In this document: positions 205 to 12,688 of the stretch, in pieces | How positions within the stretch are numbered: the first letter of the stretch is position 1 | How the letters are laid out: each line of letters begins with the position of its first letter | NCBI GenBank assembly: GCA_024278215.1 | Contig: JAJRTR010000117.1 | Location: 1-13,232, forward strand | DNA length: 13,232 bases | Origin: a bacterium | GTDB taxonomy: Bacteria; UBP15; UBA6099; JAJRTR01 | Direction: 5' to 3' | Notes under the pieces: generated by a model | What the model was told of the DNA's origin: nothing | The model's input: the letters and a program-made list of their open reading frames with translations, nothing else | The model's database searches: none | Translations under genes and position numbers: made by a program

Positions 205-221
205 TTGGCATTATTCTTGAT
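205..221 (+). promoter_or_regulatory. Sigma-54-like promoter motif shared with the 12.7 kb operon
   Basis: The sequence is TTGGCATTATTCTTGAT. It resembles the -24/-12 consensus YTGGCACG-N4-TTGCW: GG is present at -24, but the -12 GC is GA. The paralogous gene at 12633 has CTGGCACGGTTCTTGAT at nearly the same distance from its start codon (36 bases here, 39 there). The GA at the -12 position is atypical, so this may instead be a site for another regulator. The sharing between paralogues is the stronger argument. Confidence 0.45.
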
Positions 222-256
222 GGACGGTTAAAGCTAAAAGAGAAAGGAGTCGGACA

Positions 257-922
257 ATGAGAAGATTTCTTGTGGTTTTCCTGGCAGTCGTTTCTATCGT
301 GGCAGGAGGGGCCGCCATCGCATGTGGGATGGGGAACATGCACGGCAACGGCAACAGCAACAGCGGACAAAACATGATGGGCGCCGGCGGACAGGCCGGC
401 GACAATACGAATCACGGCAATATGGGCAATATGGGTGATATGGGTGATATGGGTGACATGGGTGACATGGGTGACATGGGTGACATGGGTGATATGGGTG
501 ACATGGGTGACATGGGCAATCATGGAATGACGGGTAAAATGAAGGTATCCGTATCGCCCGAACAGGCCGAAGAAACAATAGGCAAATTCCTCGACAATAA
601 TTTCAACAGGTACAAATATGGGAATATATCACTCCGGGAGAATAATTCAATGATGTTTCCACCGTTATACAGTGCGCCGGTGTCTCTTGCAGACGGGACG
701 GAGGGAACTATTCTCATCGATGCTGTAACGGGAAAGCCCGCGGGGCTGTTGTTCGGCGATTTTGAAAATGCGTTTATGGGATACCACAAGGGCGCCGAAA
801 GCGGACACGGCGATATGGGAAACATGATGATGGACCAAGGTGACGGTTCCGGTTCCGGAAACCGGAGCCACGGCGATATGGAATCGACAGATAATAACGA
901 TGCTCAGCAGCATAATAAATGA
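257..922 (+). CDS. Met-rich exported PepSY-like protein with GDM repeats
   Basis: A 221-residue protein with AAGGAG seven bases before the ATG. Residues 1-22 form a signal peptide; Cys23 after AIA is a weak lipobox, so it could be a lipoprotein. Residues 24-95 are a Gly/Asn/Met-rich linker with a tandem G-D-M run at about 56-88. Residues ~97-175 form a small alpha/beta domain with S-x-x-x-A near its start and LIDAVTGKP near its end, as in PepSY-like domains. The tail is again rich in Met, His, Gly and Asp. The protein at 12079-12633 is a paralogue (VDATTGKP, same order). Met- and His-rich exported segments are known to bind Cu(I) or Ag(I) in other proteins; binding here is inference. It heads a probable operon with the next two genes. 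Confidence 0.8.
422..520 (+). repeat. 9-bp tandem minisatellite, 11 units, in coding frame
   Basis: Eleven consecutive units of ATGGGYRAY (mostly ATGGGTGAC or ATGGGTGAT; the first and last are ATGGGCAAT) encode Met-Gly-Asp/Asn. The unit is three codons, so gain or loss of a unit by slippage keeps the frame and changes only the length of the Met-rich linker. Confidence 0.95.
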
Positions 923-976
923 GCTTCGAAGGATTTCGGTCGTGAATACATTTCAAGCTGAAGGGAGAATAAGGAC

Positions 977-1429
977 GTGAAAAAAATAATAGTGATGTTG
1001 ATTGTAATAGTTGCGGCGGCGGTGTATATCTCCGGATGCGGCGGCGGGAGTTCCATCGCCGCTCCGCAGTCCCGGACCACATCCGCCAGGATACTCTCGA
1101 TATCTCCGTCGGACGGGACATCCGGTGTTGCGACCGATACTGTTTTTACAGTATCATTCTCACAACCTATGAACATGAGTTCGGTTGACGACAATATACA
1201 TGTCTATCAGGGAACCGGCACTTCGGGGAGTTCGCTTACGGGAAATATATCATGGAACGATATGCACACGATGATGACTTTCGTTCCTGATCAGGGTTTC
1301 ATGCCGGGCACAACGCACACAGTGCATTTCGGTACGGGCATGATGAGTGAATCCGGCGGAATGATGATGAACATGTCGGGCAGCCAGATGATGAACCAGG
1401 ATATGTATACGTATTTCACTACTCGATGA
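977..1429 (+). CDS. Met-rich lipoprotein with Big_5 (SbsA Ig-like) domain
   Basis: A 150-residue protein with a GTG start preceded by AAGGGAG at nine bases. Residues 1-20 are a signal peptide ending in the lipobox ISGC, with Cys21 followed by Gly; Asp at +2 is absent, so outer-membrane sorting is expected. Residues ~40-148 resemble a single Big_5 domain: an ISPSDGTSGVATDT start, a VSFSQPM strand, then MTFVPDQGFMPGTTHTV, typical of this Ig-like fold in surface proteins. The C-terminal third is unusually Met-rich (MMSESGGMMMNMSGSQMM), as in the preceding gene. It lies 54 bases after the gene at 257 and overlaps the next gene by four bases (ATGA), suggesting one transcript. Its role is unknown; a structural or metal-binding envelope component is inferred. 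Confidence 0.8.
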   Translation: MKKIIVMLIVIVAAAVYISGCGGGSSIAAPQSRTTSARILSISPSDGTSGVATDTVFTVSFSQPMNMSSVDDNIHVYQGTGTSGSSLTGNISWNDMHTMMTFVPDQGFMPGTTHTVHFGTGMMSESGGMMMNMSGSQMMNQDMYTYFTTR

Positions 1430-2124
1430 AAGAGGGGGCGCGGATAGAAATGGCTTGTTCTACGGATAGCAGGACAAAGGGCTATAGACTCGCTTCGATG
1501 ATTTACGATCCGGTCATCGAACGCGGGATGCAGCCGGTCAGGAAGAAGACACTGGAGATCAGCAGATTGGAACCTGGCGACAAAGTGCTGGACGTCTGCT
1601 GCGGGACCGGCAGGCAGGCGGAAATCTTCGCTGAAACGGGAGCGGATGTCTGCGGCGTCGACCTTTCCGATTTTATGATTGATAAAGCGAGGAAAAAACA
1701 ACGAAAAAGTCTCACCTTCATTCAGGCCGATGCGGCGGCGACCGGATTGGATGAATCTTCTTTCGATGTCGCATCAACAGGTTTCTCTCTGCACGAGGTA
1801 GATGAAGAAACCAGAACAGGGTTCCTGAATGAAATGGCAAGGGTGACGAAACCGGGCGGTTTTCTTATATTCACCGATTTCTCGATCCAAACCCGTAACG
1901 GGTATAAAAACAGGATGCGAAAAGGGCTTGCGCATTCACTTGAATGGCTTGCCGGACCGGAGCACTACCGCAATTACATGGACTGGATGCGTGCCGGCGG
2001 ACTGAAGGGTTTTCTCGCCAGGAAAAATTTGCCTGTGGAAAAAGTATTTCACATGAACGGTGGTCATATTCTTATTGCGAAAGTGATGAATTCCAAATCC
2101 GAAGCGACGATTGCAAAATTCTGA
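1426..2124 (+). CDS. Class I SAM-dependent methyltransferase (Methyltransf_11 type)
   Basis: A 232-residue cytoplasmic protein. SAM motif I is VLDVCCGTGRQ, followed by the acidic VDLS after beta-2, an ADAAATGL motif II region, and VTKPGGFLIFTDF as the post-motif. The downstream EHYRNYMDWMRAGGL is seen in UbiE-like methyltransferases of unknown substrate. The first ATG overlaps the previous stop with no visible ribosome site; ATG 1450 with GAGGGGG 12 bases upstream is an alternative. The last codons (T-I-A-K-F-stop) are read from a repeat fragment (2109-2142), so the tail NSKSEATIAKF is probably not ancestral. The substrate cannot be told from sequence; co-operonic placement with two Met-rich envelope proteins is the only clue. 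Confidence 0.85.
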   Translation: MKEGARIEMACSTDSRTKGYRLASMIYDPVIERGMQPVRKKTLEISRLEPGDKVLDVCCGTGRQAEIFAETGADVCGVDLSDFMIDKARKKQRKSLTFIQADAAATGLDESSFDVASTGFSLHEVDEETRTGFLNEMARVTKPGGFLIFTDFSIQTRNGYKNRMRKGLAHSLEWLAGPEHYRNYMDWMRAGGLKGFLARKNLPVEKVFHMNGGHILIAKVMNSKSEATIAKF

Positions 2125-2142
2125 TTCCGTTGCGGTCGGCTC
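2109..2142 (+). repeat. Repeat fragment providing the methyltransferase stop codon
   Basis: GATTGCAAAATTCTGATTC matches the end of the 179-bp repeat exactly (compare the minus strand of 1-156), followed by GCGGTCGGCTC. It looks like an internally deleted copy retaining one end. TGA at 2122-2124, within the fragment, is the stop of the upstream gene. Confidence 0.75.
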
Positions 2143-11953: not shown

Positions 11954-12032
11954 TGACATTCCCCTCTCGTATATCCATAGTCGTCATCGTTGAGTTTTCA
12001 GTAATAAGTGATTATGCACAGGATAGGGACCA

Positions 12033-12068
12033 CCGGCTCCCACCGGGTGTGTCCCGGCGGGAGCCCGG
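12033..12068 (-). other. Strong hairpin inside the second Met-rich operon
   Basis: GGCTCCCACCGGG pairs with CCCGGCGGGAGCC apart from one A/C position (G-U on the minus strand), with a five-base loop. It lies between the Met-rich gene stop (12079) and the regulator start (11953). No T-run follows on either strand. A processing or stability element that leaves more of the first cistron is plausible. Confidence 0.5.
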
Positions 12069-12078
12069 CCCGAAATCA

Positions 12079-12633
12079 TTACCAGTTGATGTCGTCGGGC
12101 AGATCCCAGTTTTCGGAAGAATTGGAACCGCCTGTTTGTGTGACGTACTGGTTGCCGCAATGCCACTGGCTGGTTTTGGCAGTGGTATTTGTCGCTCCGT
12201 GGCAGGGCATGGAGGCATAGTGCTCTTCGGAAACCAGAGCGAAGGGCTTGCCGGTTGTCGCGTCGACCAGCAGAACCTCCCTGGTGCCGTCGGAGAACTT
12301 CACATCGGCCTTGTACAGCGTCCATCCCCAACCCATCATGCCATGTGTCGTCTGCTCGACTTCTCCTACGGTCGCATCATTGAGCCTGGCCTTTACGAAT
12401 GTCTCCGCTGCTTTGCGGGCGGCATCTCTGGAAATCAAGTCGGCATTATTCTGCGAATGCATGCCCTGTCCCATCATTCCATGTGCGCCCCCCATCATCA
12501 TACCTTGCATGTTGCCCTGCATCTGATGGGCCCCCGCGCCCTGTCCATTTCCTCCACCGGCTGCGAAGCCGTATCCTCCCAGAGCCACGAGCGCCAGCAC
12601 TGCTACGATTGTTGCCGCATACTTCTTCATCAT
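12079..12633 (-). CDS. Met-rich exported PepSY-like protein, paralogue of 257-922
   Basis: 184 residues from ATG 12633, which has GGGAG eight bases upstream; a GTG at 12642 overlaps the ribosome site. Residues 1-25 are a signal peptide. Residues ~36-59 are Met/Gly/His/Gln-rich (QMQGNMQGMMMGGAHGMMGQ). The domain at ~67-140 starts with ISRDAARKAAETFV and ends with LLVDATTGKP, as PepSY-like domains do. C144 (MPCHG) and C159 (WHCGN) may form a disulfide or, with nearby His, a metal site. The protein is probably periplasmic. Compared with 257-922 it has the same layout and the same VDA-TGKP ending but no long tandem repeat. It heads the operon with the regulator, small membrane protein and methyltransferase. 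Confidence 0.82.
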   Translation of the reverse strand: MMKKYAATIVAVLALVALGGYGFAAGGGNGQGAGAHQMQGNMQGMMMGGAHGMMGQGMHSQNNADLISRDAARKAAETFVKARLNDATVGEVEQTTHGMMGWGWTLYKADVKFSDGTREVLLVDATTGKPFALVSEEHYASMPCHGATNTTAKTSQWHCGNQYVTQTGGSNSSENWDLPDDINW

Positions 12634-12671
12634 GCGAATCACTCCCTTTCTTTAGATTTGCAAATTGTATG

Positions 12672-12688
12672 ATCAAGAACCGTGCCAG
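12672..12688 (-). promoter_or_regulatory. Sigma-54-like promoter motif of second Met-rich operon
   Basis: On the minus strand this reads CTGGCACGGTTCTTGAT. It fits YTGGCACGRNNNTTGCW at every defined position except the -12 C, which is A. The predicted start is near 12662, about 29 bases before ATG 12633. The paralogue has the same TGGCA and TTCTTGAT blocks at 205-221. Confidence 0.5.

Follow-up and report, generated by a model that had tools for sequence, protein, structure and literature searches.

The closest described counterparts of the two sites reported here are the -24/-12 promoters of sigma-54, whose consensus is mrNrYTGGCACG-N4-TTGCWNNw (quoted in PMC2725144). Consensus forms have also been published for Geobacter, TTGGCACGGTTTTTGCT (PMC2725144), and for Clostridiales, TTGGCATNNNNNTTGCT (PMC6615313). 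The C at -12 is present in 96% of sigma-54 promoters, near-invariant and not absolute, and it has been tied to low basal transcription, sigma-54 remaining silent until an activator comes; E. coli sigma-54 promoters with a base other than C at -12 are known (PMC4551910). In a 2025 survey of sigma-54 regulons spanning 33 classes, the candidate phylum UBP15 is absent from the main text (PMC12316311).

We analyzed a 13,232-nt stretch of UBP15 DNA (the window), which is an entire contig of a genome of 207 contigs and 4.55 Mb. The initial annotation had described the same sigma-54-like motif at two places on opposite strands (Table 1), with TGGCA in common, equal spacing and GA in place of GC at -12, ending 36 and 39 bases before start codons. 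All of this was confirmed, and the distances, which we measured as 35 and 38 nt to the ATG codons at 257 (+) and 12633 (-), agree. As in textbook -24/-12 promoters, both sites have the GG within TGGCA, a gap of exactly 6 nt, TTG at -14 to -13, T at -11 and a start codon close by, in a genome that encodes RpoN and its activators. Unlike those promoters, both have GA where GC is expected at -12, and UBP15 appears, from the sequences compared below, to use A at this position at least as often as C.

Table 1. Predicted promoter sites and genes of the two operons in the window.
Feature	Coordinates	Strand	Evidence
Site 1, 17-mer TTGGCATTATTCTTGAT	205-221	+	Located exactly in sequence
Site 1 core TGGCATTATTCTTGAT, -24 TGGCA and variant -12 TTGAT, predicted sigma-54 promoter	206-221	+	
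Secreted Met-rich protein, (NMGDMGDMG)n tract, PepSY-like C-terminal half	257-922	+	
Lipoprotein-like protein, Big_5 domain, Met-rich C-terminus	977-1429	+	Pfam PF13205, E=3e-12
Class I SAM methyltransferase, overlapping the 977-1429 gene	1426-2124	+	Pfam PF08241, E=4e-22
Class I SAM methyltransferase	10614-11315	-	Distant similarity to 1426-2124 (30%, 121 aa aligned, E=1e-13)
Small membrane protein, 70 aa	11312-11524	-	ORF only
Receiver-only response regulator	11525-11959	-	Pfam PF00072, E=3e-23
Secreted Met-rich protein, PepSY-like half (helix 69-83, four strands)	12079-12633	-	Predicted model
Site 2 core TGGCACGGTTCTTGAT, -24 and variant -12 elements, predicted sigma-54 promoter	12672-12687	-	
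Site 2, 17-mer CTGGCACGGTTCTTGAT	12672-12688	-	Located exactly in sequence

The exact pattern TGGCA-N3-TTCTTGAT occurred twice in the window compared with 0.00 times in shuffled sequence (0 of 200 dinucleotide shuffles had any match). The genome-wide search suggested in the initial annotation returned only these two copies across the 4.55 Mb, each shortly before a start codon. When up to three mismatches were allowed, the window held 5 matches against 4.3 in the shuffles, with no enrichment, so the signal sits in the exact form. Because the pattern was defined post hoc, the spacing, position and orthologue tests below weigh more. The TTC preceding TTGAT is not the distinctive part; five related genomes also have it upstream of rpoN, and in three of these (G001, G004 and G006) the entire 16-mer there is identical to that of site 1. 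No sigma-70-like promoter was found near site 1 within positions 100-300, and the sole match near site 2 (12600-12950, - strand) lay 230-280 nt farther upstream.

The window also contains copies of a roughly 160-nt interspersed repeat that recurs in the genome (1-161, 6968-7129 and 2108-2141). Its inverted copies in the window are 91% identical, some 45 nt separate the copy at 1-161 from site 1, and similar sequence lies beside sites at three other loci. A terminator-like sequence, CGGGATACGGTGATCCCG followed by CCCTTTTTCT, is present in two 58-nt copies (81%) at 7279-7336 and 12864-12921.

For comparison, we used seven genomes of one UBP15 order, including that of the window, which is alone among them in its family and genus; four others belong to one genus, g2, and are closely related to each other. 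Exactly one RpoN is encoded in each of the seven genomes. The recognition helix HESTVSR was intact in the RpoN versions compared, and all UBP15 versions examined carry HESTVSRAMS with an ELTQ-like lead-in to this helix. The RpoN box reads ARRTVA.YR in the versions compared, with ANYR in genus g2. In the window's genome, PF00158 was matched 19 times, in part weakly, and at least 11 of these loci have a GAFTGA-type motif, so that the RpoN and activators to which the initial annotation had pointed are both present. The RpoN of this genome also has a zinc-ribbon-like CPHC...CEHCG insert at about residues 55-71, immediately following the ENPALEI stretch in region I. This insert is absent from E. 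coli RpoN, occurs in the RpoN of G001, G002 and G005, and is partly present in two outgroups (G060 and G064).

The spacing of the two words was examined by keeping TGGCA and TTGAT fixed and varying the gap (k) from 2 to 11. This control took the place of a reversed-pattern control, which was dropped because word composition confounds it. In the window's genome, TGGCA-Nk-TTGAT occurred 20 times at k=6, whereas the other gaps averaged 4.7 and reached 7 at most. Over the three genomes counted (that of the window, G002 and G005), there were 39 occurrences at k=6 against 11.7 (Poisson p about 2e-10), and the sigma-54 spacing was the sole enriched gap. In the window's genome, TTGCT gave a small peak, and TTGCA gave no clear spacing peak (4 among the 100 matches listed).

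Position relative to genes was evaluated in the same three genomes and in two outgroups that encode RpoN, Bacillota UR.bin48 and an Anaerolineales genome, with boundaries from a home-made simple codon-usage gene caller and few sites per genome. TTGAT sites at spacing 6 lay between genes in 13 of 20 cases in the window's genome, 9 of 13 in G002 and 4 of 6 in G005 (26/39 in total). The other spacing-6 sites of the window's genome were intergenic in 11/13 (TTGCW), 3/5 (TTGTA), 3/9 (TTGTT), 1/10 (TTGAA) and 0/3 (TTGGA) cases, and the intergenic share of TTGAT differed from that of TTGAA (p=0.007). No other single -12 pentamer was intergenic as often as TTGAT in this genome (13 compared with 11 for TTGCA and TTGCT together). 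In the outgroups, by contrast, only 1 of 22 TTGAT sites was intergenic (0/7 in UR.bin48 and 1/15 in Anaerolineales), while 9 of the 11 TTGCT sites of UR.bin48 were. With the search restricted to TGGCAY, 20/25 UBP15 sites and 1/21 outgroup sites lay between genes (p=2e-7). The Anaerolineales genome also showed an excess of TTGAT at spacing 6 (14 compared with 9 and 1), which we rejected as not promoter-like, 14 of 15 sites being inside genes.

The search for orthologues of the Met-rich genes came up empty, so the window sites could not be footprinted, and we used murC, rpoN and a secreted-protein gene instead. A sigma-54-like site is present upstream of murC in all seven genomes. It reads TGGCATAGTATTTGAT in the window's genome, TGGTATGGAAGTTGAT in G002, whose -24 word has a single change, TGGCATACATTTTGAT in G005 and TGGCAT-N5-TTGCT in the four g2 genomes, which are so closely related that their agreement counts for little more than one observation. 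The -12 base is therefore A in three genera and C in the fourth, and this exchange of GA and GC between UBP15 genera underlies our assignment of the window sites to variant sigma-54 promoters. Upstream of rpoN, a site was found in six of the seven genomes, 87-144 nt before the gene, with TTGTA in the window's genome and G002, TTGAT in G001, G003, G004 and G006, and C in none; G005 has just TGGCA-N6-TTGAG near the start codon. Autoregulation of rpoN through this site is possible. A homologous secreted-protein gene is preceded by TTGTA in the window's genome, TTGTT in G002 and TTGAT in G003 and G004.

In the window's genome, TGGCA-N6-TTGTA also precedes glnA, a classical sigma-54 target, and further sites precede genes for a FapA-like protein, a penicillin-binding protein and a receiver protein. 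Such a combination of regulatory and cell-envelope genes agrees with reports that tie sigma-54 to the cell exterior. As an essential cell-wall gene, murC would be an unusual sigma-54 target.

Taken together, these comparisons make it likely that both motifs are variant sigma-54 -24/-12 promoters of two separate operons and that the GA form is lineage-wide in UBP15. This reading is based on the one intact RpoN, the activators, the k=6 peak, the intergenic bias, the murC, rpoN and secreted-protein sites, glnA and the lack of a nearby sigma-70-like promoter in the regions searched. The initial annotation had suggested, with a "perhaps", a lineage-specific sigma-54 variant, and that suggestion gains support from the same RpoN, activator, spacing and position results, from the A/C exchange between orthologues and from the outgroups. 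A single predicted site could nevertheless be inactive even if the motif class is real.

An A at -12 would normally be judged a defect, given the prevalence of C (PMC4551910), and the sites might be sigma-54 promoters of the ordinary kind whose -12 element happens to be weak, the deviation being tolerated and nothing about it lineage-specific. Canonical TTGCW sites with a largely intergenic distribution do occur alongside TTGAT, and the E. coli promoters without C at -12 provide a precedent (PMC4551910). However, we consider this unlikely, because TTGAT is the top intergenic pentamer, is kept at murC and rpoN across genera and has no promoter signature in the two outgroups. That the two 16-mers are alike by chance and form no promoter motif is hardly credible: the pattern was set after both sites had been seen and is not enriched when mismatches are allowed, but its exact form was never met in the shuffles, and the spacing, position and orthologue tests are independent and genome-wide. 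Chance is a very unlikely explanation of the motif class in general.

A different factor might also read these sites. At several of them (murC, rpoN and others), the sequence is TTG(A/C)TATA, and TTGAT followed by ATA resembles an extended -10 element (TGnTATA). TTGATATA would then be an extended -10 of the housekeeping sigma factor (TGnTATAAT-like) and TGGCA a lineage-specific upstream element, to which murC, a housekeeping gene, would be well suited. Yet TGGCA lies 10 nt from TATA compared with 16-18 nt for a -35/-10 pair, the window sites run on after TTGAT as GGACGG and CATACA and not as TATAAT, and the two words are enriched at the sigma-54 spacing only. In addition, glnA and rpoN count as classical or plausible targets of sigma-54, and TTGCT and TTGAT replace each other at the murC promoter. 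We give this explanation only a slim chance.

By strand and spacing, we infer that site 1 heads the first Met-rich gene, the lipoprotein-like gene and a methyltransferase gene, and site 2 the second Met-rich gene and the receiver, membrane protein and methyltransferase genes. On this basis, the lipoprotein-like gene is probably in one operon with the first Met-rich gene, and the receiver gene probably in one with the second. A class I SAM methyltransferase is encoded in each operon (257-2124, +; 10614-12633, -), so the two gene sets may have related work; the 1426-2124 product reached the cut-off of no NCBIfam equivalog, and the small membrane protein had no family match. Between the operons, an acyltransferase ORF (7638-9254, -) has an alpha/beta-hydrolase start at its end that runs on in a different frame (7638-8186); this points to a fusion gene with a frameshift or to a misassembly.

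The initial annotation had called the two Met-rich genes paralogous, and this holds only weakly: the proteins are 26% identical across 155 aa, with E=0.008 when aligned to each other and E=6e-4 when the genome is searched, and the likeness sits in the PepSY-like segment, not in the Met-rich tracts. Neither protein matched a PepSY profile or any specific family in Pfam or NCBIfam, the Pfam search with the first returning a low-complexity collagen-repeat match and nothing else. For the second, no relatives were found outside the host genome, in 59 other genomes and a scan of named genomes. Its predicted model (mean pLDDT 59, core about 70-90) has a helix and then a four-stranded sheet, as in the PepSY-domain protein YpmB of Bacillus subtilis (PDB 2gu3), its top, weak fold match (E=0.07). 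In contrast to YpmB, the window proteins have long Met-rich tracts and no sequence-family match. From composition alone, one might guess that they bind metal. The shared regulon proposed for the two genes comes down to a shared predicted dependence on sigma-54.

RpoN binding at the sites, control by activators and an effect of A at -12 are predictions from sequence. The RpoN holoenzyme would read the -24 element through the RpoN box and the -12 element through the helix-turn-helix of region III, and, once bound, would stay in a closed complex until an enhancer-binding ATPase acts. With A at -12, the fork-junction block may be relaxed and basal transcription raised; alternatively, the RpoN of UBP15 may be adapted to A. 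Looser control would fit an rpoN site that never has C and an essential gene, murC, as a predicted target. The E. coli promoters with a non-consensus -12 element that bypass activators (PMC4551910) likewise have the C replaced, but they form a small group observed with an RpoN that lacks Region I, whereas the UBP15 form is predicted to be lineage-wide and is conserved. Recurrence of the altered -12 form across the lineage suggests that the textbook promoter rule has changed in UBP15. More tentatively, and with real doubt on our part, A may have become the standard base at -12 with an RpoN adapted to it, and control may be partly independent of activators and reach murC and rpoN.

The C at -12 is among the most conserved bases of any bacterial promoter class. 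A lineage whose conserved promoters carry A equally often offers a natural experiment on the role of this base, and predicts that either the reading of DNA by RpoN is altered or the dependence on activators is relaxed. With sigma-54 promoter models that require GC, a large part of the regulon would be overlooked in UBP15, and perhaps in other phyla.
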